Positions 20,335 to 36,954 of a stretch of DNA of 64,000 bases are shown piece after piece (position 1 is the first letter of the stretch; each line of letters starts with the position of its first letter). The DNA comes from Ignavibacteriales bacterium. Its GTDB lineage: Bacteria; Bacteroidota; Ignavibacteria; Ignavibacteriales; Melioribacteraceae. The notes under the pieces are model-generated. The model was not told where the DNA came from, did no database searches, and saw only the letters and a program-made list of their open reading frames with translations. The DNA lies in contig JAPLFF010000003.1 in the NCBI GenBank assembly GCA_026390775.1, positions 1 to 64,000 on the forward strand. The letters are read 5' to 3'. Made by a program: the position numbers and the translations under genes.

Positions 20335-21735
20335 ATGATAGCAAATCAGAAATCACTTTATTCAGTTAAACTTTGGTTGGATTTACTTCTGCTGAATTTG
20401 TCTTTTCTCTTTTCAGCATGGATTGCGCAGCCATCGCACATTCTTTATGAAAGACCGTACATGTTTTTTTTACTGTTTACGCTTAACATCGTGTGGTATT
20501 TCACAACTAATGTGACTGATTTCTATGACAATTTTAGCCCGCATGAATTTTTCTTTCAAGCAACTATTATTTTTAAAAATGTTTTAGTTCAGATTGTTGC
20601 CGCTATTATTTTCATCTTTATAAAAAAGGAAGATTTATTCACACGTAATTTCATCATCTTTTATTTTGTGTTTCTTGTACTTCTTGTTGGTTTCAGAACA
20701 ATCTCTTTCAGATTGATTCAAAGTGTACTGCGCAAAAAAGGTAAATATGTTAGAAATTTAGCAGTCATTGGGGCTAATAGTATTGGTATCGAGTTTATTA
20801 AGCTAGTTGAGTCGAATCCGAATTTTGGCTTTCAGATCGTTGGATTTATTGATGAAAAACCTAATACGAATGAAAAATATTTAGGCGGATTAGAAAGACT
20901 TAGCGAAATTTTAACTGAACAAAAAATTGACGAAGTGGTAATTGCAATTCCAAATTGCGATTCTCACAAACTTAGTCGTATCATAAATATCTGCAACAAA
21001 AATGCAGTAAGAATACATATCATTCCCGACTATTTTCAGTTTCTATCGAAAAAATTTTTATTAAGTACTATAGGAAACTTTCCGATTATAACTGTTCGCG
21101 ATGAGCCGCTAGCTGAAATACAATGGCGATTTGTTAAGCGAACATTTGATATCTTCTTCTCGCTTGCAGTATTGATTTTTGTCCTAAGCTGGTTGATTCC
21201 GGTAATTTCAATAATAGTTAAATTATCATCACGCGGATCAATCTTTTTTATTCAAGACCGTATTGGCTTAAAGAATGAAAAATTCCGGTGTTTCAAATTC
21301 CGTTCGATGTATAGTGAACAAAAGCTTCGAGAAAATGATTTTAATCCTACGATGGAAAACGATCCGCGGGTAACAAAAATTGGAAGGTTTCTACGACGAA
21401 CAAATCTTGATGAGCTTCCACAGTTGTGGAATATTCTTAAAGGAGAAATGTCAATTGTAGGTCCACGTCCTCACGCCGTCGCTTTCAATCAAGAATACAT
21501 CCACTACTTCGATGCGATTAAATTACGTCATCTGGTTAAACCCGGTCTAACCGGATGGGCTCAAGTTCACGGATTAAGAGGAGATATTACAGATCCGGTA
21601 GAGAATAGAAAAAGAACCATCGAAAGAATTGAGTATGATATCTGGTATATCGAAAATTGGAATTTCTGGTTAGATATTCAGATCATACTTCTAACAATTT
21701 GGCAAATGTTAACTCGTAGTACCAAAGGTTACTAG
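20335..21735 (+). CDS. Polyprenyl-phosphate sugar-1-phosphate transferase (WcaJ-like)
   Basis: A 466-residue PGT that moves a sugar-1-phosphate from a nucleotide sugar to undecaprenyl phosphate, the first membrane step of repeat-unit assembly. Order of parts: N-terminal membrane spans (about residues 10-120), a Rossmann-like CoA_binding_3 domain (about 135-250), then the bacterial sugar transferase domain with VKRTFDIFFSL, FKFRSMYSEQ, the catalytic Asp-Glu in NLDELPQLWNILKGEMS, IVGPRPHA and KPGLTGWAQVHG. The closing RIEYDIWYIENW segment is also present. The family usually transfers glucose- or galactose-1-phosphate. It stands alone on the plus strand between two minus-strand units. Confidence 0.9.
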   Translation: MIANQKSLYSVKLWLDLLLLNLSFLFSAWIAQPSHILYERPYMFFLLFTLNIVWYFTTNVTDFYDNFSPHEFFFQATIIFKNVLVQIVAAIIFIFIKKEDLFTRNFIIFYFVFLVLLVGFRTISFRLIQSVLRKKGKYVRNLAVIGANSIGIEFIKLVESNPNFGFQIVGFIDEKPNTNEKYLGGLERLSEILTEQKIDEVVIAIPNCDSHKLSRIINICNKNAVRIHIIPDYFQFLSKKFLLSTIGNFPIITVRDEPLAEIQWRFVKRTFDIFFSLAVLIFVLSWLIPVISIIVKLSSRGSIFFIQDRIGLKNEKFRCFKFRSMYSEQKLRENDFNPTMENDPRVTKIGRFLRRTNLDELPQLWNILKGEMSIVGPRPHAVAFNQEYIHYFDAIKLRHLVKPGLTGWAQVHGLRGDITDPVENRKRTIERIEYDIWYIENWNFWLDIQIILLTIWQMLTRSTKGY

Positions 21736-22966: not shown

Positions 22967-23200
22967 AAATAATTTCCTTATTGTTCAGTAAAATATAGCT
23001 TAAAAATTTCTTGTTTTCACGAATGAACCTATTATTCGTATATTGAATTATCGGAAACCCTGAAGAATTTAATACAAGTTAGTAACTGAAGTAAGTCGAA
23101 CGCTGATTGAAACAGCATCGAATAATTATTTTAAATTACTATAAAATAGTTGGAGTTCATTTCATTTTTTAATTTTCATTACCTTATCAAAGTAGAAACC

Positions 23201-24156
23201 ATGCAATGTAGAATTTGCGGTAATCAAAAAAATAATCAAGAATATGAAGCTAAAGAAATGATGTTTGGATATAGGGATGTCTTCCTTTATTTCCAGTGCT
23301 CAATGTGCGATTGTCTGCAGATTGAAAAATTTCCTTCCGATATTTCAAAGTATTACTCAGATGGCTACTATTCGTATAAACTAAACTCGAAGTTGAATTT
23401 TATTGAGAGGTTAGTAAAAAATTTGAGAAATGAATATGCTGTCTTCAATAAAGGAATTATTGGAAAACTATTATATGCCAAATATCCGGCAATAGAATAT
23501 AGAGCTCTTGCTTACCTTCCGATAAAAAAAGACTATAATATTCTTGATGTTGGATGTGGAGCAGGCATATTTCTACACTCACTTCGTGAAATTGGATTTA
23601 AAAACCTTCTTGGGATTGATCCTTTTAATGAGAAAGATATTGAATATGGAAATGGTTTAAGAATTCAAAAAAAAATATACATGAGGTTCAGGGCAAATGG
23701 GATGTGATAATGTTTCATCATTCTCTTGAACATATTTATGAACAAGAAAAAATATTAAAAATTGTATTTGATTTATTAAAACCCGGTGGCTATTGTATAA
23801 TTAGAGTTCCGACTGTTTCTTCTTATGCATGGAAGAACTATGGAATGAAATGGGTACAGATAGATGCGCCTAGACATTATTATCTTCATTCTATCAAGAG
23901 TATTGAAATTCTTTCCGGAAAAACAAACTTTGAGCTTAACAACGTTATTTATGACTCGACAGCTTTTCAATTCTGGGGAAGTGATCAGTATTTAAAGAAC
24001 ATACCGCTGAATGACCCACATTCATATTTAAGGAATCCTAAGAATTCCCTTTTTTCGAAAAAAGATATTTCGGGGTTTTCCAAACGTGCTAAGGAACTTA
24101 ATGCTGCCAAACAGGGAGACCAAGCGGTTTTTTACTTAAAAAAAATAGTCAAATAA
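23201..24156 (+). pseudogene. SAM methyltransferase interrupted by a frameshift at an A9 run
   Basis: Paralogue of 11097-12065. From the ATG at 23201 the frame encodes two CxxC pairs, the EMMFGYRDVF block and SAM motif I (ILDVGCGAGIFLHSL), then runs out at a TGA at 23705-23707. The rest (DVIMFHHSLEH onward to the end at 24156) continues in the -1 frame. The switch lies at nine A (23667-23675). Ten would give an uninterrupted protein reading KKNIHEVQGKWDVIMF, matching the intact paralogue in layout. It could be a dead gene, a phase-variable or slippage-rescued gene, or a sequencing error. All conserved downstream motifs are intact, so loss, if real, is recent. Confidence 0.8.
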
Positions 24157-24578: not shown

Positions 24579-25775
24579 ATGAAATATAACGTAATTGTTA
24601 TTGGCGCAGGTATTGTCGGATTAGCTTCTGCGTTGAAGATTCTAGAGAAGAATCGTTCACTAAAATTACTTATACTGGAAAAAGAAAATAGTGTAGCAAA
24701 ACATCAAACAGGAAATAACAGCGGGGTTATTCATTCCGGCATTTATTATAAACCCGGAAGTTTGAAAGCACAGAATTGCGTCAGCGGATATAAAATGCTG
24801 ATTAATTTTTGCAATGAGAATCAAGTCCGTTACAATATTTGCGGAAAAGTGATTGTTGCAGTTACTGAAAAAGAAATTCCCGTAATGGAAAATATTCTTG
24901 ATCGTGGAAACAAAAATGGCCTTAAGGGATTAAAAAGATTAACACGTACAGAAGTGAGAGAAATTGAACCGCACGTTGATTGTGTTGCGGGAATTTTTGT
25001 TCCTCAAACTGGAATAATTGATTACAGCGAAGTGTCGGAAAAATATCTCGAACTAATTAAACGCGCTGAAGGAAAAATAGAATTCAATACTGATGTAAAA
25101 AATTTATTAATTAAGAATGATGAATGTGAAGTAATTACCTCAAAAGGTGTTTTCAAATCCAATGTTGTAGTTACATGTGCAGGATTATTTGCAGATAGAA
25201 TCACAAAAATGACTCATCCGGATTTGCAATTGCGTCTTATTCCTTTTCGCGGTGAATATTATAAATTGAAGGTAGAAAAAAATAATTTGGTGAATGCTCT
25301 TATTTATCCCGTACCCGATCCGGCTTTTCCATTCTTAGGTGTTCATTTTACTAAAATGATTAATGGAGAAAGAGAATGTGGTCCGAATGCAGTTCTTTCC
25401 TTTAAGCGGGAAGGATATACGAAAACAAGTTTTAATTTACTCGATACATTTGAAACCTTTACTTGGAACGGCTTTCATAAATTGATTAAAAAACATTGGA
25501 GAATGGGATTAAGCGAGTTTTACAGATCGTATAACAAAAAAGCATTTGTTAGAGCGTTAAATAAATTGATTCCCGAAGTAACTGCAAAGGATCTTGCACC
25601 CGGTGGTGCCGGTGTGCGGGCTCAAGCATGCTTAAAAGATGGAAGTTTACTTGATGATTTTTATATTGTCGAAGATAAAAAAGTTGTTCACGTTTGCAAT
25701 GCACCTTCTCCTGCTGCTACCGCTTCGTTATCAATAGGAAATTTTATTTCTGATAAAGTTTTAACAAAAATTTAA
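24579..25775 (+). CDS. lhgO: L-2-hydroxyglutarate oxidase/dehydrogenase, LhgO family
   Basis: A 398-residue FAD enzyme of the DAO superfamily that oxidises L-2-hydroxyglutarate to 2-oxoglutarate, passing electrons to the membrane quinone pool in known members. The FAD-binding VIGAGIVGLASALKILE is at residues 6-22. The family signature KHQTGNNSGVIHSGIYYKPGS lies near residue 45, and the closing APGGAGVRAQA and NAPSPAATASLSIG segments are present. Length is normal. It is placed inside a polysaccharide cluster and separated from the next PGT gene by one base, which implies co-transcription. Its metabolic link to the cluster is unclear. Confidence 0.87.
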   Translation: MKYNVIVIGAGIVGLASALKILEKNRSLKLLILEKENSVAKHQTGNNSGVIHSGIYYKPGSLKAQNCVSGYKMLINFCNENQVRYNICGKVIVAVTEKEIPVMENILDRGNKNGLKGLKRLTRTEVREIEPHVDCVAGIFVPQTGIIDYSEVSEKYLELIKRAEGKIEFNTDVKNLLIKNDECEVITSKGVFKSNVVVTCAGLFADRITKMTHPDLQLRLIPFRGEYYKLKVEKNNLVNALIYPVPDPAFPFLGVHFTKMINGERECGPNAVLSFKREGYTKTSFNLLDTFETFTWNGFHKLIKKHWRMGLSEFYRSYNKKAFVRALNKLIPEVTAKDLAPGGAGVRAQACLKDGSLLDDFYIVEDKKVVHVCNAPSPAATASLSIGNFISDKVLTKI

Positions 25776-25776
25776 T

Positions 25777-27180
25777 ATGAACAAACGAACCGAAAAATTT
25801 TTAATACTGACTACGGATTTTATAGCAGTTAATCTTGCGTGGATTTTATTTTTCTACGTTCGGGTCCAAACCGGCTGGTTCGAGTTAATCGCTCAGCCCG
25901 ATATCCTTCTTTCAATGATCGCTGTTTATTTTTATTGGCTCATCTTTTTTACTTTTGTAGGAATGTACCGTACATGGTTTGCTCTCTCAAGATTTGATGA
26001 ATTATCTACGTTGTTCAAAGCATCGTTTGTAGGCGTCTTCATTTTATTCTTTTTAGTATTGTATGATGATTACGCAAACGGCGTTACCACCTCAGTTCGA
26101 TTTTATATTTTCCTTTACTGGGGAATTTTTCTTTTTGTTGTTAGTGCGGGAAGATTATTCATTAGAAGTCTTCAACGAAGACTTCTTATTAAAGGAATCG
26201 GAAGACGGAATGCTCTTATCGTAGGGTTCAATTCTAAAGCAAACGAAATTCATAATTCGATTCTCAAATTCCGTGAACTTGGTGTTGATGTCGTAGCTTA
26301 TGTTGATGTTGACGGTTCTCAACTTAACAATTCATTTAAAAATATTTCTGTTGTAGATACAATTCACAATCTGGAATCTGTTCTGGAAAATTATCAGATC
26401 AAAAATGTTATAATTTCTCTGGGACGGCATGAAGAAGAAACTATTCTTGAAGTGATTTCACGTTGTGAAGGAAAGAACGTTGAGATAAAAATCGTTCCCG
26501 ATCTTTATGATATAATAAGCGGGCAGGCAAAGATCTCTCAACTTTATAGTTTTCCTCTGATTGATGTAATGCCGGAGCTAATGCCCGAGTGGGAAAAGAA
26601 AATAAAAAGGTTGATGGATGTTTTCCTGTCCTTTGTTCTTATTGTTTTAACTTCACCAGCAACTTTATTAACAGCACTAATTATAAAATTAGACAGTAAA
26701 GGACCTGTATTTTTCAAGCAAGAGCGTGCCGGAATGAACGGAAAAGTTTTTAAGATGGTTAAGTTTAGAACAATGATTGCAGATGCGGAAAAACATACCG
26801 GTCCGATTTGGTCGGCAAAAGATGATACCAGAATCACTAAAATTGGTAGATTCGTCCGTAAAGTACACCTTGATGAAATCCCGCAAGTTTTTAATGTACT
26901 GAAAGGCGACATGAGTTTTGTCGGACCGCGTCCCGAACGGCCTTTCTTTGTAGAAAAACTTTCTCATGAAATTCCGCTTTACAAAAGAAGATTAAAAGTA
27001 AGACCGGGAATTACCGGCTGGGCGCAAGTAAAACATAAATACGATGAGACAATAGAGGATGTAAAAGTTAAACTTCGTTATGATTTATTCTATATTGAAA
27101 ACATGAGTTTAAGAATGGATTTTAAAATAATTTTCAGAACTGTTTTTGTAGTATTATTCGGTAAAGATCATTACGATTAA
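25777..27180 (+). CDS. Polyprenyl-phosphate sugar-1-phosphate transferase (exopolysaccharide PGT)
   Basis: A 467-residue PGT. N-terminal spans (about residues 10-115) are followed by a CoA_binding_3 Rossmann-like domain (about 140-245) and the sugar transferase domain: KRLMDVFLSFVLIVL, GPVFFKQERAGMNGKVF, VKFRTM, the catalytic Asp-Glu in HLDEIPQVFNVLKGDMSFVGPRPE, and RPGITGWAQVKHKYD. All expected motifs are intact. It starts one base after lhgO and is followed 15 bases later by the Dpm1-like gene. It differs from the copy at 20335, which points to a second priming sugar or a second glycan. Confidence 0.9.
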   Translation: MNKRTEKFLILTTDFIAVNLAWILFFYVRVQTGWFELIAQPDILLSMIAVYFYWLIFFTFVGMYRTWFALSRFDELSTLFKASFVGVFILFFLVLYDDYANGVTTSVRFYIFLYWGIFLFVVSAGRLFIRSLQRRLLIKGIGRRNALIVGFNSKANEIHNSILKFRELGVDVVAYVDVDGSQLNNSFKNISVVDTIHNLESVLENYQIKNVIISLGRHEEETILEVISRCEGKNVEIKIVPDLYDIISGQAKISQLYSFPLIDVMPELMPEWEKKIKRLMDVFLSFVLIVLTSPATLLTALIIKLDSKGPVFFKQERAGMNGKVFKMVKFRTMIADAEKHTGPIWSAKDDTRITKIGRFVRKVHLDEIPQVFNVLKGDMSFVGPRPERPFFVEKLSHEIPLYKRRLKVRPGITGWAQVKHKYDETIEDVKVKLRYDLFYIENMSLRMDFKIIFRTVFVVLFGKDHYD

Positions 27181-27195
27181 AAATTAAATTTAATT

Positions 27196-27912
27196 ATGAA
27201 AGCAATTGTAATAATTCCGACATACAACGAGATTCACAATATCAGAAAACTGATTCCCGATCTTCTCGCATCTTATCCTTCACTTGATATTTTAATTGTG
27301 GATGATAATTCCCCGGATGGAACAGCAAATGCAGTTGATGAAATGATCAAAAATAATTCTCGCGTAAAGATTATTAAACGAGAAGGAAAAAAGGGACTCG
27401 GTACAGCTTACGTTGCCGGATTTAAATACATGCTGGCAAATGGGTATGATTGCGCTGTTCAGATGGATGCTGATTTCTCACACGACCCTAAGGAAATTAA
27501 AAGATTTTTAGAAGAAGTAAAAGATCATGATCTGATAATCGGCAGTAGATATATTTACGGAGTTCGTGTTATCAACTGGCCGATCAGAAGATTAGTGTTA
27601 AGTTATTCCGCAAATCTTTATTCAAGAATTATTACCGGTATGCCGGTTAAAGACGGAACCGGAGGATTTAAATGCTTCCGCCGCAAAGTATTGGAAGCAA
27701 TAAATCTTGATGCAATTCACTCTAACGGTTATTCATTTCAGATAGAAATGAATTATAAAGCATGGAAAAAAGGATTTAAGCTTATTGAAATTCCAATAAC
27801 TTTTGTTGATAGAGTACATGGCACTTCAAAGATGTCTAAGAAAATTGTTCGCGAAGCGGTTATTATGGTATGGAAGTTAAGATTGCAAAGTATTTTCGGC
27901 ACATTAAATTAA
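27196..27912 (+). CDS. Polyprenol-phosphate mannose/glucose synthase-like GT2
   Basis: A 238-residue GT-A enzyme resembling DPM1/Ppm1. The start IIPTYNEIHNIRKLIPDLL, the IVDDNSPDGTA segment, GLGTAYVAGFKY and the DxD in MDADFSHDPKEI (near residue 95) are all present, as is DGTGGFKCFRRKVL near 155. It lacks C-terminal membrane spans, like the catalytic domain of bacterial Ppm1. It probably makes a polyprenyl-phosphate sugar used by periplasmic transferases. It sits 8 bases before the GT2/pseudo-PGT fusion gene. Confidence 0.86.
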   Translation: MKAIVIIPTYNEIHNIRKLIPDLLASYPSLDILIVDDNSPDGTANAVDEMIKNNSRVKIIKREGKKGLGTAYVAGFKYMLANGYDCAVQMDADFSHDPKEIKRFLEEVKDHDLIIGSRYIYGVRVINWPIRRLVLSYSANLYSRIITGMPVKDGTGGFKCFRRKVLEAINLDAIHSNGYSFQIEMNYKAWKKGFKLIEIPITFVDRVHGTSKMSKKIVREAVIMVWKLRLQSIFGTLN

Positions 27913-27919
27913 GAGTGCA

Positions 27920-29908
27920 ATGATTGATCTCTCAATAATAATTATCAATTATAACGTAAAAGAATTTTTACTTAATCTTCTGGATTCAATACGTAAAGCG
28001 ATAAAAAATATTTCTACGGAAATAATTATTGTTGATAATACTTCAGATGACGGCAGCGTTGAAATCCTACGAGAGAAATTTCCCAATATTAAATTAATAG
28101 CCAACAAGAAAAATGTGGGATTCGGATCTGCAAACAATCAAGCAATGGAATCTGCAAAAGGGAAATATTTTTTGTTTATCAATCCCGATGCAATTGTTAG
28201 AGAAGATACTTTATTAAAAATGTTGGAGTTCTTTGATAAAACTCCACAAGTTGGAATTGCCGGCTGCAAGGTATTAAATCCCGATGGTTCGTTACAGCTT
28301 TCATGCAGAAGAAGTTTCCCCAGACCATGGACATCATTTACAAAAGTTATGGGATTGAGTAAACTTTTTCCGAAGAGCCGTTTGTTCGCACGTTATAATT
28401 TAACCTACCTTGATGAAAATCAAACTTACGAAGTTGATGCTGTTAGCGGCGCTTTTATGATGATGAGAAAAGAAGTCTATGAGAAGATAGGCGGATTCGA
28501 TCAGCAATTTTTTATGTACGGCGAAGATCTTGATCTCTGTTACCGGGTGCAAAAATCCGGTTATAAAGTTTTTTATGTACACAACACCGAAATAATTCAT
28601 TACAAAGGAGAGAGTACAAAGAGAAGCAGTTTAGATGAAACAAAAATCTTTTACGACGCTATGCATCTTTTTGTCCGTAAACATTTTTCTTCCTCATTCA
28701 TCGTTGAGTCAATTCTTCAGACAGCGATTCTTTTCAGAAAACTAATTGCTTTTGCAAATATTTATAAGCTTGCGTTTCTTTCAATTATTGTTGACTTCTT
28801 TACTTTTTCAACATCTATTCTTCTTGCTGCAAATATATATTCTAATGAGCATTGGAGGGGTTTCCCGAATTATGTAAAACCTTGGGCCTATTTTATCCCT
28901 GCCTTTATTCAAATTATAATATCGTCTGTAAGCGGCTCGTATAGTAAAAAAACATTTTCAATTTTACGCACAGTTATTTCTCTATTGTTTGGAATGATCT
29001 TTTTATCTGCACTAACTTATTTCTTCAAACAAGTAGCATTCAGCCGTGCAGTTGTTTTAATAACGTATGCACTTGCTCTTGTTTTCTTTTTGTTCTGGAG
29101 AATCGCTCTTAAAGTAATTTTTAAGATCGGACTCGAGACGGATACAAGGAAATCCCGCACGTTAATTGTAGCAAGTGAATCTAAAGCAGAAGAACTTGCA
29201 TCAAAATTGAAATCAACATTTACGAAACTTTATCAAATTGTTGGGATTATTGGATTGACCAGAAAAAATATTGGTGGGAAGATCGGCACTTATAAAATAC
29301 TTGGAACGGTTGATAACATAAAAAAAATAATTACTGATGAAAAAGTTGATAAAGTAATCTTTTCTTCAGATGATCTATCGTTCAATCAAATGTTTTCTGT
29401 TGTTGCCGAATGCCAAGGAGAAAATGCCGAGTTTCTTGTTGCAGGTAAGGAATTAGATTATCTAGTCGGCAAATCTTCCATAACAATGCTGGATGATATT
29501 CCGTTACTGAAAGTGCAGTATAATATTTCTTCGTATTTTCACCGCGCATCAAAACAAATGCTGGATATAATACTTGCATCCTTAATTTTGTTTTTGGTTT
29601 ATCCTTTCATATATTTATTTCAGAAGCTGAGATCAAAAAAGAGCAAATTCACTCAATTCATCCTCAAAATCCCGAGTGTTTTCATAGGGAAGAAAAGTTT
29701 TGTTGGACCACGTGATAATTCTTATCACGGTGATTTATATGTCGGGAAAACCGGATTAACCGGATTCTGGTTTGTAGAAAATTTTTTAGAGAATGATACA
29801 GAAGAAACAAAAAAGCTGGACATCTTTTACGCAAAAAATCAAAACATTTGGTTAGACCTCGAAATACTTGGAAAAACACTTTCAAAAATGTTTTTTAGTG
29901 CGGAGTAG
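27920..29908 (+). CDS. GT2 glycosyltransferase fused to a degenerate PGT-like membrane domain
   Basis: A 662-residue protein with two parts. Residues 1 to about 245 are a rhamnosyltransferase-like GT2 domain: [41 protein letters not shown] and [19 protein letters not shown]. From about 285 on it looks like a PGT: four membrane spans, a Rossmann-like domain (about 410-530; [27 protein letters not shown]), one further span at about 550-575 after [14 protein letters not shown], then [20 protein letters not shown] and [16 protein letters not shown]. Missing from that PGT end are the FF.Q.R.G....F...KFR block and the catalytic Asp-Glu segment (LDEIPQ in the copy at 25777). About 60-70 residues between the last span and the GPR motif are gone. 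The PGT half is therefore predicted inactive and may anchor or scaffold the GT2. Confidence 0.82.
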
Positions 29909-29910
29909 AA

Positions 29911-30861
29911 ATGGCAAAAAATATACTGGATTTTGAGAAGCCCATAATTGAACTTGAAAAAAAGATTGATGAAATGCGGAAGTACGAAGGGCAACTTAAT
30001 ATTTCTGATGAGATAAAAACACTCGAAGAAAAAGTTTTTCAACTCAAGAAAAATATTTATAACGATCTTACTCGCTGGCAGCGTGTTCAGCTCGCCCGTC
30101 ATCCCGAGCGTCCTTATACTCTGGATTATATATACATGATAACGGAAAATTTTATTGAGATGCACGGAGATAGATTGTTCAAGGATGATAAAGCAATTGT
30201 TGGTGGATTAGCGATGCTTGACGAACAAAAAGTTATGATCATCGGTCATCAAAAAGGACGGGATACTAAATCTAACGTTTATAGAAATTTTGGAATGTCC
30301 AATCCCGAAGGTTACCGCAAAGCATTACGCTTAATGAAACTTGCAGAGAAATTTAAGATTCCCGTTATTACTATGCTTGATACTCCGGGCGCTTATCCCG
30401 GAATTGAAGCCGAAGAACGCGGACAGGCAGAAGCAATTGCCAGAAATCTTTTAGAGATGAGCCGTCTTCGCGTACCAATTATTGTTACAATTATCGGTGA
30501 AGGTGCTAGCGGAGGCGCATTAGGAATAGGAATTGGTGATAGAGTTTTAATGTTACAAAATACTTGGTATTCGGTAATTAGTCCTGAATCTTGTTCAAGT
30601 ATTTTATGGAGAAGTTGGGAATATAAAGAGACTGCTGCAGAAGCATTAAAACTAACTGCCGAAGATTTATTAGAACAAGGTATTATTGATCGGATTGTTA
30701 CCGAACCATTAGGCGGTGCTCATAAAGATCATCTGCAAATTGCAAGCACCTTAAAATCCGTACTGAAAGAAGAACTTTCATTGTTATTGAAAATAAAACC
30801 TGAGAAGTTGATACAGAACCGTCTTGAAAAATTTGCTAAGATGGGAATGTATATTGAATAA
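29911..30861 (+). CDS. accA: Acetyl-CoA carboxylase carboxyltransferase subunit alpha
   Basis: A 316-residue subunit of the carboxyltransferase, which with AccD moves CO2 from biotin to acetyl-CoA to give malonyl-CoA for fatty acid synthesis. It is recognised by the N-terminal helical part ([15 protein letters not shown]), [44 protein letters not shown] and [19 protein letters not shown], then [20 protein letters not shown]. Length is normal. It starts 2 bases after the fusion gene stop, with GGAG just before that stop, so it may be read on the polysaccharide transcript. accD is not in this window. Confidence 0.96.
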
Positions 30862-30952
30862 TAAAAACTAAATCCAAAGTACAAAATTCAAAAACATTTT
30901 TTTGGATTTTGCGTTTATACTTTTTCTAAACTGAAAAAATTCAAATTACCTT

Positions 30953-31366
30953 ATGCTCACACACGTTACTGAAATTCGGGTTAGATATGCCGATACGGAT
31001 AAGATGCAGTTTGTTTATAACGGAAAATATTTGGAATATTTTGAAGTTGGAAGAACAGAATTATTACGTGCAACCGGACTCTCTTACAGCGAAGTCGAAA
31101 AAAAAGGTTATCAACTTCCGTTGATAGAAGCCGGATTAAAATATTATCTTCCTGCGGTATACGACGACATTCTTGAAATCCATTCGTGTGTTAAAGAATT
31201 GTACTCTCCCAAAGTTCACATTGAATATGTTGTGAAAAGAAAAAATACAGATGAATTGATTGCTGAGGGATTTACAACGCATATCTTTATTCGAACAGAT
31301 ACAAAAAAGGCCGTCCGTCCGCCTAAAGATTATGTAGCTGCACTGGAACCGTTTTTCAAAAAATAA
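30953..31366 (+). CDS. Acyl-CoA thioesterase, YbgC/4HBT family
   Basis: A 137-residue hotdog-fold thioesterase. The start THVTEIRVRYADTDKMQFVYNGKYLEYFEVGRTELLR contains the catalytic aspartate context of the 4HBT family (RYADTD..G.VY...Y), seen in YbgC and FadM. It hydrolyses acyl-CoA in the cytoplasm; chain-length preference cannot be read. It lies between accA and a flippase gene, so lipid metabolism is a reasonable context. The start ATG has a weak upstream site. Confidence 0.85.
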   Translation: MLTHVTEIRVRYADTDKMQFVYNGKYLEYFEVGRTELLRATGLSYSEVEKKGYQLPLIEAGLKYYLPAVYDDILEIHSCVKELYSPKVHIEYVVKRKNTDELIAEGFTTHIFIRTDTKKAVRPPKDYVAALEPFFKK

Positions 31367-31416
31367 TTATTAAAGTTTACCGGAGAAAAAATACTTCGGC
31401 CGGATTAAGTTTTGAA

Positions 31417-32880
31417 ATGTTAGAAAAGATAAAAGAACTTACCAAAGACACAGCGATTTATGGAATAAGCACAATTGTCGGAAGATTTCTGGGATTTTTT
31501 CTAATACCATTTTATACAAATGTAATTAACACACACGATTTTGGAATTTACTCCAATATCTACGCTTACCTTGCCTTTTTAAACATATTTTTTATCTACG
31601 GAATGGATGCAGCTTTTATGAAATATGCATCCATAAATCAAAATGTTGAAAAGAGGAAAACTTTTTCAACTGCATATCTATTCGTTACGTTAACTACAAT
31701 TTTGTTGGCAGTAATATTATATCTTTTAAAAACCCCGTTTTCAAGATTAATGGAAATTCCTAATGAGTATTCAAAACTATATTACTATTTAATAATCATT
31801 TTGATTTTTGATACGTTAGCTCTTGTGCCTTTTGCTAACCTAAGGTTAGAAAGAAAAGCGGGAAAATTCACTTCAATAAAACTCTCAAACATAATATTAA
31901 ATCTTGCTCTTAATTTTATTTTAGTCTTAAAATTCAAACTTGGTATTGAAGCAATATTTTTAGCTAATCTTATTGCATCTGCGTTTTCTTTTTTAGTGCT
32001 TACGCCGGAAATATTTAAAATAATCTCCATCAAAATTGATAAAGACCTTTTAAGAAAGCTTTTGAAATTTGGTATTCCGTATTTACCGGCAAGTTTAGCT
32101 GCAATGGTTGTTCAGGTAGTAGATCGTCCTGTTGTGCTGGCTATGACAAATGAATCCACGCTTGGTATATACCAGGCGAATTACAAACTCGGAATTTTTA
32201 TGATGCTCTTTGTTTCAATGTTTCAATTTGCTTGGCAGCCGTTTTTTCTAAATAATGCGAAAGAAAAAAATGCTAAAGATATTTTTGCAAAAGTACTAAC
32301 ACTGTTTTTACTTGTATCAAGTATGATCTGGATTGTTCTTACTTTATTTGTAGAAGATTTTGCCAGGTTTGAATTCATGCCCGGGAAATCAATTATTGGT
32401 AAAGAATATTTAAGCGGTATAGCAATTGTCCCGATTATTCTTCTCGGTTATCTTTTCAACGGAATTTATTACAACTTTCAGGCTGGAATTTATATTGAAG
32501 AGAAAACAAAATATTTTCCATTTGTAACTGGAGCCGGAGCGCTGGTTAATGTTGTTGTAAATATTTTGTTAATACCAATTCTTGGTTTAATTGGTGCGGC
32601 TATAGCAACTTTAGCAAGTTATGTTGTTATGGCAACCGGATTGTATTTCTTCTCTCAAAAGTATTACAAGATAAAATATGAATACGGTAAAGTATTTAAA
32701 ATCTTAGCTACAATAGTTATTACATGTATAATCTATTATTATTTTTATTATGAAGTAGGATTAACCATGTTGTATAAATTTATTTTACTTTTTTGTTTTA
32801 TCGGTTCATTATTAGCAATGCGGGTCGTTGAGAAAAATGAAATTATCCGTTTAGTTAAAATGCTTCTTCGTGTCAAGTAG
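31417..32880 (+). CDS. Polysaccharide flippase, Wzx/MATE-like
   Basis: A 487-residue protein with about 14 predicted spans. It starts with KELTKDTAIYGISTIVGRFLGFFLIPFYTN, the usual entry of the polysaccharide biosynthesis flippase family, and has the HDFGIYSNIYAYLAFLNI segment near residue 45. This is the third intact flippase of the window, after 7349-8818 and 16664-18199. It closes the glycan region on the right; the next gene is dut. GGAG precedes the start at 31380-31384 but is rather far (about 30 bases), so ribosome binding at the ATG is not obvious. Confidence 0.83.
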   Translation: MLEKIKELTKDTAIYGISTIVGRFLGFFLIPFYTNVINTHDFGIYSNIYAYLAFLNIFFIYGMDAAFMKYASINQNVEKRKTFSTAYLFVTLTTILLAVILYLLKTPFSRLMEIPNEYSKLYYYLIIILIFDTLALVPFANLRLERKAGKFTSIKLSNIILNLALNFILVLKFKLGIEAIFLANLIASAFSFLVLTPEIFKIISIKIDKDLLRKLLKFGIPYLPASLAAMVVQVVDRPVVLAMTNESTLGIYQANYKLGIFMMLFVSMFQFAWQPFFLNNAKEKNAKDIFAKVLTLFLLVSSMIWIVLTLFVEDFARFEFMPGKSIIGKEYLSGIAIVPIILLGYLFNGIYYNFQAGIYIEEKTKYFPFVTGAGALVNVVVNILLIPILGLIGAAIATLASYVVMATGLYFFSQKYYKIKYEYGKVFKILATIVITCIIYYYFYYEVGLTMLYKFILLFCFIGSLLAMRVVEKNEIIRLVKMLLRVK

Positions 32881-32967
32881 TTTTTTATCTTTTCTAAGTA
32901 TTTAAAAAACAAGAAGAAATAAAATTTCTTTTATCATAACTTATCATCGCAATTCTAGAAAAACATT

Positions 32968-33423
32968 ATGAAATCAATACAAATAAAAATTCAGCATATC
33001 ACTAATAAATTTAAAGATATACTAATGCCTGAGTATGCAACTGAAGGCAGTAGCGGTCTTGATCTACGTGCAGCTGTTGAAACCGAAATGAAAATTGAAA
33101 AAAGTAAAGTTGGATTAATCCCGACAAATCTAAAAGTTGAAATTCCAGTTGGTTATGAAATACAAATTCGTCCACGTAGTGGACTTGCTGCAAAAAATGG
33201 AATTGGAGTTTTAAATTCACCGGGAACAATTGATTCTGATTACCGCGGGGAAATCAAAGTGATCTTATTCAATTTTAGTAATGAAGAGTTTATTATCAAA
33301 CGCGGTGATAGAATTGCTCAGATGGTTGTTACAAAAGTTTACCGTGCTAATTTAATTTTAACAGATGAGTTGGAAAAGAGTAAACGCGGTGATGGCGGTT
33401 TTGGACACACAGGGAAAAAATAA
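32968..33423 (+). CDS. dut: dUTP diphosphatase
   Basis: A 151-residue trimeric dUTPase that converts dUTP to dUMP and diphosphate, keeping uracil out of DNA. All five family motifs are visible in order: SSGLDLRA (31-38), the conserved Asp region around PTNLKVEIP, RPRSGLAAKNGIGVLNSPG (about 71-89) followed by IDSDYRGEI, RGDRIAQMV, and the C-terminal RGDGGFGHTGK arm that closes over the active site. Length is normal. It lies 72 bases before dnaE with a hairpin in the gap. Confidence 0.96.
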   Translation: MKSIQIKIQHITNKFKDILMPEYATEGSSGLDLRAAVETEMKIEKSKVGLIPTNLKVEIPVGYEIQIRPRSGLAAKNGIGVLNSPGTIDSDYRGEIKVILFNFSNEEFIIKRGDRIAQMVVTKVYRANLILTDELEKSKRGDGGFGHTGKK

Positions 33424-33427
33424 TTGA

Positions 33428-33472
33428 GAATTGCGAATGGAGAATTGATAATTGATTCTCAATTCGCAATTC
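33428..33472. repeat. Imperfect 45-nt inverted repeat between dut and dnaE
   Basis: GAATTGCGAAT (33428-33438) pairs with ATTCGCAATTC (33462-33472), and inside it GAGAAT (33440-33445) pairs with ATTCTC (33455-33460), with one G/A mismatch between the blocks. That makes a 17-bp stem on a 9-base loop. The neighbouring CTCAATTCGG at about 33479-33488 repeats the same words. No U-run follows, so it looks more like a dispersed palindromic repeat than a classical terminator. Confidence 0.55.
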
Positions 33473-33495
33473 TAAATTCTCAATTCGGATTTTAG

Positions 33496-36400
33496 ATGTC
33501 AGATTTTGTTCACATACATAACCATTCGCATTACAGTCTGCAGGACGGCGCATGCACGGTTGAAGATTTAATTCATGCTGCTAAAAAAAATAATATGCAT
33601 GCAGTTGCGTTGACAGATCATGGAGTAATGTTTGGTTCTGCGGAGTTCTATAAGAAAGCAAAGCAGGAAGGGGTCAAACCGCTTGTTGGAATGGAAGCCT
33701 ACATTGTAATTGATGGAACACGTTTCGATAGGAAAGGAGACGATCCGAATAATCTGAAAAAAAAATCAAAACCTTATAATCATCTTTTATTGCTAGCTAA
33801 GAATGAGACCGGTTATAAAAATTTGATGAAGCTTACAACTATCGGTTACATTGAAGGATTTTATTATAGACCAAGAATTGATCTTGAAATACTTGCCAAA
33901 TATAGTGAAGGATTAATTTGTACTTCAGCTTGTCCTGCCGGACCAATCTCAACACCAATAATTAATGATGATTATACTAAAGCCCGTTCAACTGCCATAA
34001 AATTAAAAGAAATTTTTGGAGATGATTTTTATCTCGAAATTCAAGATCACGGAATGGATATAGAAAAACCGATTCTTGATACAATGCCTAAGCTTGCCGC
34101 AGATCTTGGTATTAAATTAGTTGCTACAAATGATATTCATTATATCGAAAAAGATCATTCGATCGCACATAATATTTTAATTCAACTTGGCGATAAAACC
34201 GGAACAGTTGATTATAAAGATTTGCGGTACGGAACCGATCAGATATATTTTAAATCCGCAGATGAAATGAAAAAGCTTTTCAAAAATTATAAAGGTGCAA
34301 TTGAAAACACCATAGAGATCGAAGAAAAAATAAATTTACAATTAGATTTTCGCGGGCACCAATTTCCGCAATTTCCAATTCCACAAAATTCCAAAGCAAA
34401 AAATTTAGAAGAATATCTCGAACAACTTGCAGAAGATAGATTAGAGAGTACTTATAAAAAAGTAACTCCGGAAATAGAAGAGCGTTTCAAATTTGAGATA
34501 GATGTTATTAAACAAATGGGTTATGCCGGTTATTTTTTAGTCGTGCAGGATTTTATTAATGCAGCAAAACAAAGAGGAATTCCCGTTGGTCCAGGCAGAG
34601 GAAGTGCTGCCGGAAGTTTGGTAGCTTATGTTTTAGGAATAACAAATGTCGATCCGTTGAAATATAATTTGTTATTCGAACGGTTTCTAAATCCCGCACG
34701 TAAATCAATGCCTGATATTGATGTTGATTTCGCCGATGATAAGCGCGGTGAAGTTATTAATTATGTAAAAGAAAAATACGGTGAGAATTCAGTTGCGCAG
34801 ATTATAACTTTTAACAGATTATCATCACGCGCAGTATTAAAAGATGTAGCACGCGTACTAAAAATTCCAATTCCAACCGTAGAAAAAATTACAAAATGGA
34901 TTCCATCAAAGTTTGGACGTGTTTACGATCTTGATCAAGCATTAAACGAAGTTCCAGAACTTGCGTGGGTAAACAAATCCGACGATCCAATAATTCAAGA
35001 ACTTATTAAGTATGCTAAAATTCTTGAAGGAATGAACCGCAATGCATCTAAACATGCTGCAGGTGTTGTTATCACTCCGGGTGAAGTAAGTGATTTTGTT
35101 CCTCTTGCAATTTACGGCGATGATAATTCGATCGTTACACAATTTAATATGAAGGATCTTGAAGATGCCGGATTATTAAAAATGGATTTTCTTGGGCTAA
35201 GAACTTTATCAATCATTAGAGATACGATCGAGTTAGTAAAACAATCCAGCAAAATTGAAATTGATATTGATAATATTCCAACAGACGATGCTAAGACATA
35301 TGAAGTTTTCAGCAAGGGACAGACAACTGCAGTGTTCCAGTTTGAAAGTGCCCCGATGCGTGAGTATCTAAAAAAACTTAGACCAACCAGTATAAATGAT
35401 CTTGCTGCAATGAACGCACTTTACCGTCCCGGCCCTATGGAATTTATTGATGATTTTCTTTCCCGGAAAAACGGAAAAAGACAAATAAAATATTTACATC
35501 AAGTACTTGAGCCGATACTTAAAGAAACAAATGGTATTATTGTTTATCAGGAACAAGTAATTCAGATTGCAAATAAAGTTGCAGGAATGAGTTTAGCCGA
35601 AGCAGATCTTCTTCGCCGTGCTATGGGTAAAAAAGATTTGAAAGCTATGGCTGAGCAGAAAGAAAAATTTACCGAAGGTGCGGTAAAAAATAATATCAGC
35701 AAAAAAATTGCCGAAGAAATTTTTGAAGCTATAGATAAATTTGCTAATTACGGATTTAACAAAAGTCACGCTGTTGCTTATTCTATTGTAGCATATCAAA
35801 CGGCATATTTAAAAGCTCATTACTTAGAAGAATTTCTTGCAGCAAACCTTTCGAATGAATATGGCAACACTGATAAAGTTACTAATTTACTTGAAGATTG
35901 CCGTAAACTTAATGTTAAAGTACTTCCTCCGGATATCAATAATCCATCTGTAAAATTCGGCGTTAAGAATAAGCAAATTATTTTCGGAATGAGTGCAATA
36001 AAGAACGTCGGAGTTAATGCTGTAGAGATTATTAAATCATCACATAAAAAACTTGGAAGAAATTTTAAAAGCATTTATGATTTCTGTGCGAATGTTGATA
36101 ATCGTGTTGTCAACAAACGTGCGTTGGAAGGATTAGTTCTTGCAGGTGCATTCGATCTGTGCGGCGGTTCTCGGGCGCAGAACTTTTTAGCAGTTGAAGA
36201 ATCTCTTACTTTCGGTAACAAAGTACAATCAGTAAAAGGTTCTCTGTCAGATAGTTTATTCTCTAGTGATTCGGATGCGATGCACATTTACGAACCAAAA
36301 CTTCCAGATATTCGTCCATGGGAAACAAAAGAACGTTTGAAAAAAGAAAGAGAAGTGCTTGGATTTTATTTAACCGATCATCCGCTGAGAAAATATGAAA

Positions 36401-36954
36401 TAGAATACAACTCATTTGCAACAGTTCATCTTGGTGAAATGGAAACTTATAAGTTCAACGAATCAGTGAGAGCATGTGGAGTTGTAACCGAAGTAAGAAC
36501 AAAGATAGACAAGCGCGGAAATCAAATGGTGTTTTTTAAGTTAGATGATTTCAGCGGTTCATGTGAATGTTTGATGTTCTCAAAAGTTTTTGCAACATGT
36601 GAAAACTTAATTGCACTTGAGTCAACTATTCTAGTAACGGGTAAATTAGAAAGCAGCGGAGATGCTGTAAAACTACATGTTGATGAAGCAATTTCACTCG
36701 ACAATGCAAAACAAAAACTAACTAAGAGAATCGGAATTATTATAGATAAGAATTCAAACCAAGCAAGCACGGTTACAGAGATTAAAAAATTAATTGAAGA
36801 GAATGAAGGAACACTGCCGGTTCTTATCTGCATAAAAGATAACGGTGTTATGCGGGAATTTCATATCAATTATAAAATTTCATTCAACTCAGAATTCATT
36901 CCTAAAGTAAAAAAACTTCTTGGTGAAGAATCAATTGTTTATTTAGCTACTTAA
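33496..36954 (+). CDS. dnaE: DNA polymerase III subunit alpha
   Basis: The 1152-residue replicative polymerase. The N-terminal PHP domain starts VHIHNHSHYSLQDGA and continues with VALTDHGVMFG. The palm carries GPGRGSAAGSLVAYVLGI near residue 366 and the catalytic aspartates in PDIDVDFADDKR (D409 and D411), with the third acidic region in KMDFLGLRTLS near residue 565. Further on are ALYRPGPMEF, RRAMGKKD and FNKSHAVAYS. A C-terminal OB-fold region is seen around residues 980-1060 (ACGVVTEVRTK, FFKLDDFSG). It is of normal DnaE1 length, with no intein and no exonuclease insertion. Start ATG at 33496. Confidence 0.97.
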   Translation: MSDFVHIHNHSHYSLQDGACTVEDLIHAAKKNNMHAVALTDHGVMFGSAEFYKKAKQEGVKPLVGMEAYIVIDGTRFDRKGDDPNNLKKKSKPYNHLLLLAKNETGYKNLMKLTTIGYIEGFYYRPRIDLEILAKYSEGLICTSACPAGPISTPIINDDYTKARSTAIKLKEIFGDDFYLEIQDHGMDIEKPILDTMPKLAADLGIKLVATNDIHYIEKDHSIAHNILIQLGDKTGTVDYKDLRYGTDQIYFKSADEMKKLFKNYKGAIENTIEIEEKINLQLDFRGHQFPQFPIPQNSKAKNLEEYLEQLAEDRLESTYKKVTPEIEERFKFEIDVIKQMGYAGYFLVVQDFINAAKQRGIPVGPGRGSAAGSLVAYVLGITNVDPLKYNLLFERFLNPARKSMPDIDVDFADDKRGEVINYVKEKYGENSVAQIITFNRLSSRAVLKDVARVLKIPIPTVEKITKWIPSKFGRVYDLDQALNEVPELAWVNKSDDPIIQELIKYAKILEGMNRNASKHAAGVVITPGEVSDFVPLAIYGDDNSIVTQFNMKDLEDAGLLKMDFLGLRTLSIIRDTIELVKQSSKIEIDIDNIPTDDAKTYEVFSKGQTTAVFQFESAPMREYLKKLRPTSINDLAAMNALYRPGPMEFIDDFLSRKNGKRQIKYLHQVLEPILKETNGIIVYQEQVIQIANKVAGMSLAEADLLRRAMGKKDLKAMAEQKEKFTEGAVKNNISKKIAEEIFEAIDKFANYGFNKSHAVAYSIVAYQTAYLKAHYLEEFLAANLSNEYGNTDKVTNLLEDCRKLNVKVLPPDINNPSVKFGVKNKQIIFGMSAIKNVGVNAVEIIKSSHKKLGRNFKSIYDFCANVDNRVVNKRALEGLVLAGAFDLCGGSRAQNFLAVEESLTFGNKVQSVKGSLSDSLFSSDSDAMHIYEPKLPDIRPWETKERLKKEREVLGFYLTDHPLRKYEIEYNSFATVHLGEMETYKFNESVRACGVVTEVRTKIDKRGNQMVFFKLDDFSGSCECLMFSKVFATCENLIALESTILVTGKLESSGDAVKLHVDEAISLDNAKQKLTKRIGIIIDKNSNQASTVTEIKKLIEENEGTLPVLICIKDNGVMREFHINYKISFNSEFIPKVKKLLGEESIVYLAT

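Follow-up and report, generated by a model that had tools for sequence, protein, structure and literature searches.

The window, by which we mean the whole stretch of 64,000 nucleotides that was analysed, holds the following run of genes on its forward strand.

25777..27180, + strand: intact large monoPGT, 467 aa (PF02397 1-178, 2e-70)
27196..27912, + strand: Dpm1-like GT2, 238 aa (PF00535, 7.4e-30)
27920..29908, + strand: GT2-pseudoPGT fusion gene, 662 aa (ORF scan, Pfam, TIGR03025, AlphaFold2 model)
29911..30861, + strand: accA, a frequent downstream neighbour of the fusion (Pfam, locus comparison)
31417..32880, + strand: Wzx-type flippase (PF01943, 8.2e-18)

The PGT at 25777 had been called intact in the initial annotation and indeed is, since its Bac_transf match runs from profile position 1 to 178. 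Models of polyprenyl-phosphate sugar synthases score under their cut-offs for the Dpm1-like GT2. The region upstream of the PGT is occupied by a glycan cluster (Wzy, Wzx, Wzz, SLBB and a number of GTs); another intact PGT lies there, at 20335 of the window.

Some further observations concern the surroundings. An L-2-hydroxyglutarate oxidase-like gene (24579-25775; NF008726, 543.8 bits) stands directly before the PGT, as it also does in several relatives. At 23150-24156 a short frame of 185 aa overlaps with one of 150 aa, and to the eye the pair looks like one SAM methyltransferase in two pieces. The chain of genes after the fusion, namely accA, 4HBT thioesterase, Wzx, dUTPase and dnaE (29911-36954), recurs in several genomes of the order.

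Domain architecture of the fusion

The fusion protein is divided as follows.

27920..28669, + strand: GT2 (GT-A) domain, aa 1-250, with NPD and GEDLDLC motifs retained (PF00535, family alignment, PDB matches)
28766..29122, + strand: four-helix membrane bundle, aa 283-401 (model helices, TIGR03025 alignment)
29141..29455, + strand: DUF / CoA_binding_3 Rossmann-like domain, aa 408-512 (PF13727, 3nkl structure match)
29456..29524, + strand: region of the WbaP dimer beta-hairpin, aa 513-535 (model strands)
29534..29629, + strand: re-entrant/interfacial helix of the PGT core, aa 539-570 (model helices, conserved residues)
29630..29674, + strand: junction, aa 571-585, where the KFR block is missing and the Asp-Glu dyad replaced (motif counts, WbaP profile alignment)
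29675..29893, + strand: C-terminal PGT remnant, aa 586-658, including 21 protein letters not shown (Bac_transf, PglC match)

The GED motif is a hallmark of GT2 enzymes. The fusion carries both a D-x-D-like and an E-D motif, and its Glycos_transf_2 match (PF00535, residues 5-191, E 3.6e-28) reaches 99 bits against a cut-off of 23.3. Among the 189 family proteins gathered, the NPD motif is found in all 189 and an ED-type pattern in 184. Its PDB matches include Leptospira 6P61 (Z 25.1), the fucosyltransferase WrtF (Z 23.7) and the rhamnosyltransferase RmlT (Z 22.5), a likeness at Z 22-25 that consists in the common GT-A fold and is confined to the GT2 part. The presence of rmlC in the genome allows dTDP-rhamnose as a putative donor.

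The AlphaFold2 model of the whole protein alone (mean pLDDT 87.5, pTM 0.78) displays the GT2, the four helices, the DUF and the PGT core. When this model was compared by Foldseek, WbaP (8T53) came at rank 16 (2.5e-11), amid GT2 structures; the whole-model comparison behind the Z scores given above tested the GT2 part only, and the C-terminal half was therefore folded separately (mean pLDDT 86.7). WbaP is then the sole PDB chain with E up to 0.001 (1.5e-12). In a second comparison it scores Z 14.3 across 328 residues, at an rmsd as large as 16.6, and PglC 8g1n aligns at Z 10.8 over 123 residues and 3.2 A.

The helices of the bundle occupy residues 283-307, 320-338, 348-368 and 376-401 of the model. 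PF13727 (CoA_binding_3) matches residues 342-499 with E 2.4e-10, and the DUF resembles the UDP-quinovosamine 4-dehydrogenase 3nkl (Z 13.5); by eye, the first Rossmann glycine has become Ala in the window protein. In the hairpin region there are strands at 514-516 and 521-523, and confidence is low at 526-531. Helices 539-559 and 561-570 form the re-entrant/interfacial element of the PGT core, where K545 is kept in 159, D549 in 162 and P562 in 154 of the 172 full-length relatives. Behind the junction, Y637 is invariant (172/172) and D646 nearly so (170/172). TIGR03025 spans residues 291-566 and a second stretch, at 149.7 bits against a cut-off of 295.55.

As to the large monotopic PGTs of the TIGR03025/WbaP type, the fusion has their four-helix bundle and PF13727 DUF, while a full PF02397 catalytic domain, the KFR block and the Asp-Glu dyad are all absent from it. 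WbaP of Salmonella enterica (8T53) shares the bundle, the DUF, the hairpin region, the re-entrant helix and the C-terminal tail, but in the fusion the KFR block is deleted, the dyad is gone and a GT2 domain stands in front. With the small monotopic PGT PglC of Campylobacter concisus (8G1N, 8E37), the remaining PGT core aligns over the same 123 residues (27% identity with 8G1N), without the catalytic segment. Bifunctional monoPGTs (Bi-PGTs) are named in the accessible part of PMC10942596, and they resemble the fusion in that a functional domain is joined to a monoPGT; the monoPGT part of the fusion, however, is without catalytic elements, so that it does not fall among them.

A PGT half without its catalytic centre

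The initial annotation held that the C-terminal half keeps the frame of a PGT and lacks its KFR block and Asp-Glu motif. This is what we find: both are missing from the 662-aa protein, and Bac_transf (PF02397) matches it only from profile position 96 to 178 of 179 (residues 586-658, E 2.2e-10). The catalytic block of the PGT domain goes here by the name KFR. A profile of 67 C-terminal halves, compared with the PDB, aligns on both sides of one long stretch that only WbaP has, and this stretch contains KFR and ends near the dyad. The helix that follows the dyad in WbaP is retained in the fusion family without the dyad itself, whose D-E aligns by eye to Q579-F580 of the fusion. The Asp-Glu dyad is named in PMC10942596.

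A KFR-like or DE-like pattern occurs in none of the 172 full-length relatives (those of 590-760 aa out of the 189 gathered; some may be one genome drawn from two collections, as perhaps L044 and L129, whose contigs are equally long, and hence not all are independent). Thus the Asp-Glu, whose constancy of absence the annotation had left to be checked, is missing from all the full-length carriers of the same fusion that were compared. In 60 active-type PGTs of the same loci, KFR-like patterns are found in 59, DE-like ones in 57 and both in 56. To enter this control a protein had to match one of the window's two PGTs in BLAST along more than 330 residues of the query, a rule that is biased towards complete proteins. 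The median spacing from D549 to G590 is 40 residues in fusions versus 96 in active PGTs, so that about 56 residues have been lost from the pseudo-PGT part. Columns 578-579 are both acidic in none of the 172; in four of them two acidic residues stand side by side at some point within 563-588, but in no case do they resemble a dyad.

The finding would have to be read differently if relatives carried a full active PGT in the same region, and no family member in the set carries the active motifs. When PF02397 was searched in 118 genomes of the phylum, 107 had a match, and at least four complete PGTs lie in frames of more than 700 aa. One of them, in a genome of the window's class, is L269:2578-4941 on the - strand (788 aa, genome G062), a GT2 joined to a complete large PGT with KFRSM and DEVPQ. 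The same genome also has a pseudo-PGT fusion (L091); the PGT of L269 groups with active PGTs on the tree, and its GT2 looks to the eye like another type. Frames of 740 aa in G038 and G052 that seemed to join GT2 and PGT were rejected, because the ORF scan resolves them into neighbouring genes, a GT2 of 268-270 aa followed by a PGT of 471-475 aa.

Three more of these long frames were listed. In two genomes of the window's class, G079 (L096:8126-10498, - strand) and G108 (L270:697-3192, + strand), a WecA/MraY-type polytopic transferase (PF00953) is fused to a complete large monoPGT (PF13727 and PF02397), which brings both PGT superfamilies into one protein; the one at L096 lies in the vicinity of a pseudo-PGT fusion. 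An unusually long frame of 730 aa with a complete PGT, KYRSM and DEVPQ, lies on the - strand of L268 (G111).

The dead half is nevertheless preserved. Pooled over seven close pairs, which share sequences and so are not independent, dN/dS is 0.046 for the GT2, 0.075 for the linker, 0.10 for the bundle (aa 291-400), 0.052 for the DUF (aa 405-512), 0.016 for the hairpin region, and 0.10 each for the core remnant and the tail. The hairpin value is the lowest, but it comes from 23 codons only, with a dS of 0 in one pair and no estimate in another. With pooled values of 0.016-0.10, the PGT part is under strong purifying selection as judged from these sequence comparisons. Since it has lost both catalytic elements and is yet preserved by selection, it likely serves a non-catalytic role, and we regard the C-terminal half as a pseudoenzyme on the strength of its lost motifs and of the selection on the protein.

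The fusion is also widespread. It is present at full length in 54 of 57 genomes, the window's own included, at 46-100% identity; in two of the remaining three it is cut by contig ends, and the third (G042) has distant GT2 matches only. At E up to 1e-60, the class gave a match in 278 of its 294 genomes and the phylum-wide draw in 222 of 395, counts that take in reduced forms and GT2-only matches. At least 80 named records, among them Stygiobacter (71%), Kryptonium, Neomarinimicrobiota, Calditrichaeota, a TA06 bacterium, Balneolales, Hymenobacter, Prolixibacter, Saprospiraceae and others, extend the spread among the matches listed over Ignavibacteria, Kryptonium, Neomarinimicrobiota, Calditrichaeota and Bacteroidia. 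Because the same fusion recurs in so many genomes, the possibility that the join is an assembly artefact, which had been raised, can be set aside.

In a quick, unrooted tree of 54 C-terminal parts, which contains some long rows, the 22 pseudo-PGTs make up one side of a branch with SH-aLRT 100. As they sit across that branch from the active enzymes, the window's pseudo-PGT did not arise by recent duplication of the PGT at 25777. Given that the pseudo-PGTs group on one side of a well-supported branch, we infer, from a tree without a root, that the catalytic loss would have happened once, before Bacteroidota and their relatives diverged.

Reduced relatives and gene neighbourhood

Evolution has trimmed some members further. 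Fourteen relatives of 366-414 aa terminate shortly past the GT2. Taken singly, their tails score poorly against the DUF model (a single tail reaches 34 bits, five score between 9 and 18, six stay below 6 and two have no hit), and taken together as a profile they match DUF plus hairpin with an hhalign probability of 98.4 and E 6.7e-15, in a single comparison. The same profile has no match to the bundle (hhalign probability 0.2) or the PGT remnant (0.4). A hairpin strand like IIGS is readable by eye in nine of the 14.

The set is delimited as follows. L079 is GT2 alone and was excluded from the 14 tails and included on the tree, which thus has 15 reduced rows; L085 is probably not an ortholog and was excluded from the reduced set; L073 (520 aa, in which bundle and DUF are scored) belongs to neither set. 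On a quick GT2 tree of 93 rows, with 33 of its 90 inner branches open, the 15 reduced rows require five changes, at least three of them forced by starred branches. Fourteen reduced rows fall in the half with named Bacteroidia and one, L068, falls outside it; the branches leading to L075 and L079 are long. Among the 20 loci L207-L226, some full-length forms included, recR is near in six and pdhC in five, and synteny accordingly supports orthology for a part only. Given the changes required on the GT2 tree and the tails that are still DUF-like, loss of the spans and the PGT remnant can evidently occur and has probably done so more than once, with the DUF-like tail staying.

The neighbourhood was counted within four genes on the same strand. 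In 24 loci of the window's order, ten of which do not have four visible genes on both sides, the 25777-type PGT is near in 23, the Dpm1-like gene in 24, accA in 22 and Wzx in 15. In 20 loci from the rest of the class the PGT is near in 12, the Dpm1-like gene in 12 and accA in 17, and in 17 from the rest of the phylum set (L107-L126, where three of 20 were dropped with the gene below the pick-up threshold) the figures are 10, 11 and 10. The loci L207-L226 gave 0, 0 and 1 of 20, but these are short loci of 7.5-9 kb, and only two of them are complete to four genes on either flank. Of the 55 named loci, drawn mostly from Bacteroidia (L147-L206, five others excluded), the PGT is found in one, the Dpm1-like gene in none, recR in 20 and pdhC in 13; neither the PGT nor the Dpm1-like gene occurs in any of the 27 named loci longer than 18 kb. 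The idea of the initial annotation, a glycosyltransferase held beside both the active PGT and the Dpm1-like enzyme, therefore fits the window's order, where the first is a neighbour in 23 and the second in all 24 of the loci, but it is not general, with one and none of the 55 named loci.

Two observations belong to this comparison. A gene of about 370-410 aa lies between the PGT and the Dpm1-like gene in L034, L088, L090, L093, L094, L096, L098, L100 and L105-L108; these loci are mostly outside the window's order, and the gene is absent from the window. FpgA of Flavobacterium psychrophilum was considered as an ortholog and rejected, since according to the accessible part of PMC4293000 it has 319 aa and adjoins another glycosyltransferase-like gene; recR is held by 20 of our 55 named loci.

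The accessible parts of PMC12871550 and PMC8729774 describe the core-glycan enzymes of Bacteroidota protein O-glycosylation as not known, and for that reason the fusion seemed a candidate for the core-glycan step. We compared the enrichment of D-[ST]-[AILVMT] in secreted proteins, using a crude signal-peptide rule. In the window genome, sampled as the 64 kb window and 20 stretches of 20 kb (400 kb), all on contig C3, secreted proteins have 94 motifs against 87 expected (z 0.9), which is no enrichment, and the reversed motif was seen 108 times against 84 expected. Nor was there enrichment in G355, whose fusion relative is a reduced form (94 against 101). The same script, applied to 56 pooled named loci, mostly Bacteroidia, gave 260 against 146 (z 12.2). 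With the test negative in the window genome, a link to O-glycosylation is not supported there; in Bacteroidia it may still exist.

What the dead half may do

It seems to us about equally likely to be right or wrong that the fusion is a GT2 of a lipid-linked glycan pathway which is paired or regulated through the DUF/hairpin module of its pseudo-PGT. Its GT2 would add a sugar onto the polyprenyl-diphospho-sugar made by a PGT. The DUF and the first part of the hairpin would be the lasting function, a module for dimerisation and/or nucleotide sensing that sets the assembly or activity of the GT2, and the bundle, re-entrant helix and tail would serve as a membrane dock where present. Pairing or sensing is the likeliest lasting role because, within the dead half, change is slowest in DUF and hairpin, and a DUF can still be recognised after reduction. 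The initial annotation had offered anchor, nucleotide-sugar sensor or scaffold as reasons for keeping the domain. A non-catalytic role is likely, and the persistence of the DUF leaves room for a sensor or scaffold; the anchor is weakened as a main role, because the reduced relatives have lost spans and remnant while their tails, as a profile, still match the DUF.

Known systems make pairing and sensing conceivable. In the WbaP dimer, nearly all contacts between the two DUFs are made by a hairpin crossing over from one to the other; UMP, UDP and UTP stabilise this DUF, and UMP is also an inhibitor of the enzyme (all from the accessible part of PMC10942596). In Myxococcus xanthus the PGT EpsZ is stimulated by EpsW, which according to a model favours its dimer, so that a large PGT there has a dimer state proposed to be under the control of a partner; the regulator in that system is a response regulator and not a pseudo-PGT (PMC12802240). 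Among the papers listed in searches of the open literature, outside which most subscription papers lie, we found no description of a GT2 fused to a degenerate PGT. Our own structure models of the fusion are of single chains.

One may imagine instead, as a more specific form of the scaffold in the initial annotation, that the pseudo-PGT pairs, via bundle and DUF hairpin, with the active PGT upstream and so couples the addition of the first and second sugar. Large PGTs do dimerise through the same elements (PMC10942596, accessible part), and a 25777-type PGT is near in most loci of the order and in more than half of those in the rest of the class and the phylum set. The partner, however, is near in none of L207-L226, few as their complete views are, in a single named locus and in none of the long ones, and the reduced forms are without the bundle; in our opinion this makes such a heterodimer rather unlikely.

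The near-invariant Y637 and D646 point, as far as conservation can, to a role beyond the DUF where the remnant is present. Together with K545 and the PglC fold retained over 123 residues, they would suit a cradle in which the re-entrant helix and the remnant no longer catalyse anything but continue to bind the polyprenyl-diphospho-sugar on behalf of the GT2. Yet there are reduced relatives without either element, and we consider a cradle improbable.

That the dead half is nothing but a passive membrane anchor for the GT2 may be suggested by the four confident helices of the model. The 172 full-length members were chosen by length, so that the spans are kept through the choice of the set; in the reduced relatives the spans are lost from proteins whose tails match the DUF profile, and the pace of evolution is lower in DUF and hairpin than in the bundle. 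We find a mere anchor very doubtful. A decaying relic, an assembly error or a frameshift might be thought of in view of the missing catalytic block, but with the fusion at full length in 54 of 57 genomes and dN/dS far below 1 the chance of this is negligible.

Returning to pairing or regulation through the DUF/hairpin module, a wider speculation can be put forward, although we hold it to be on the unlikely side. Across Bacteroidota and their relatives, a pseudo-PGT subunit might control the entry into a lipid-linked glycan pathway that is conserved: a domain swap of the hairpin, with an active PGT or with itself, would let nucleotide levels and the state of the initiating enzyme decide whether the second sugar is added, and certain lineages would have trimmed this subunit to its essential core of GT2 and DUF.

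Nucleotide sensing and dimerisation have been proposed for the DUF of WbaP, and the fusion bears on what the DUF does in large PGTs. Evolution has here carried out a separation experiment, in which the DUF stayed where the PGT chemistry and, in some lineages, the spans and the remnant went. Since the DUF is kept without PGT chemistry, its function may be tested apart from PGT catalysis.
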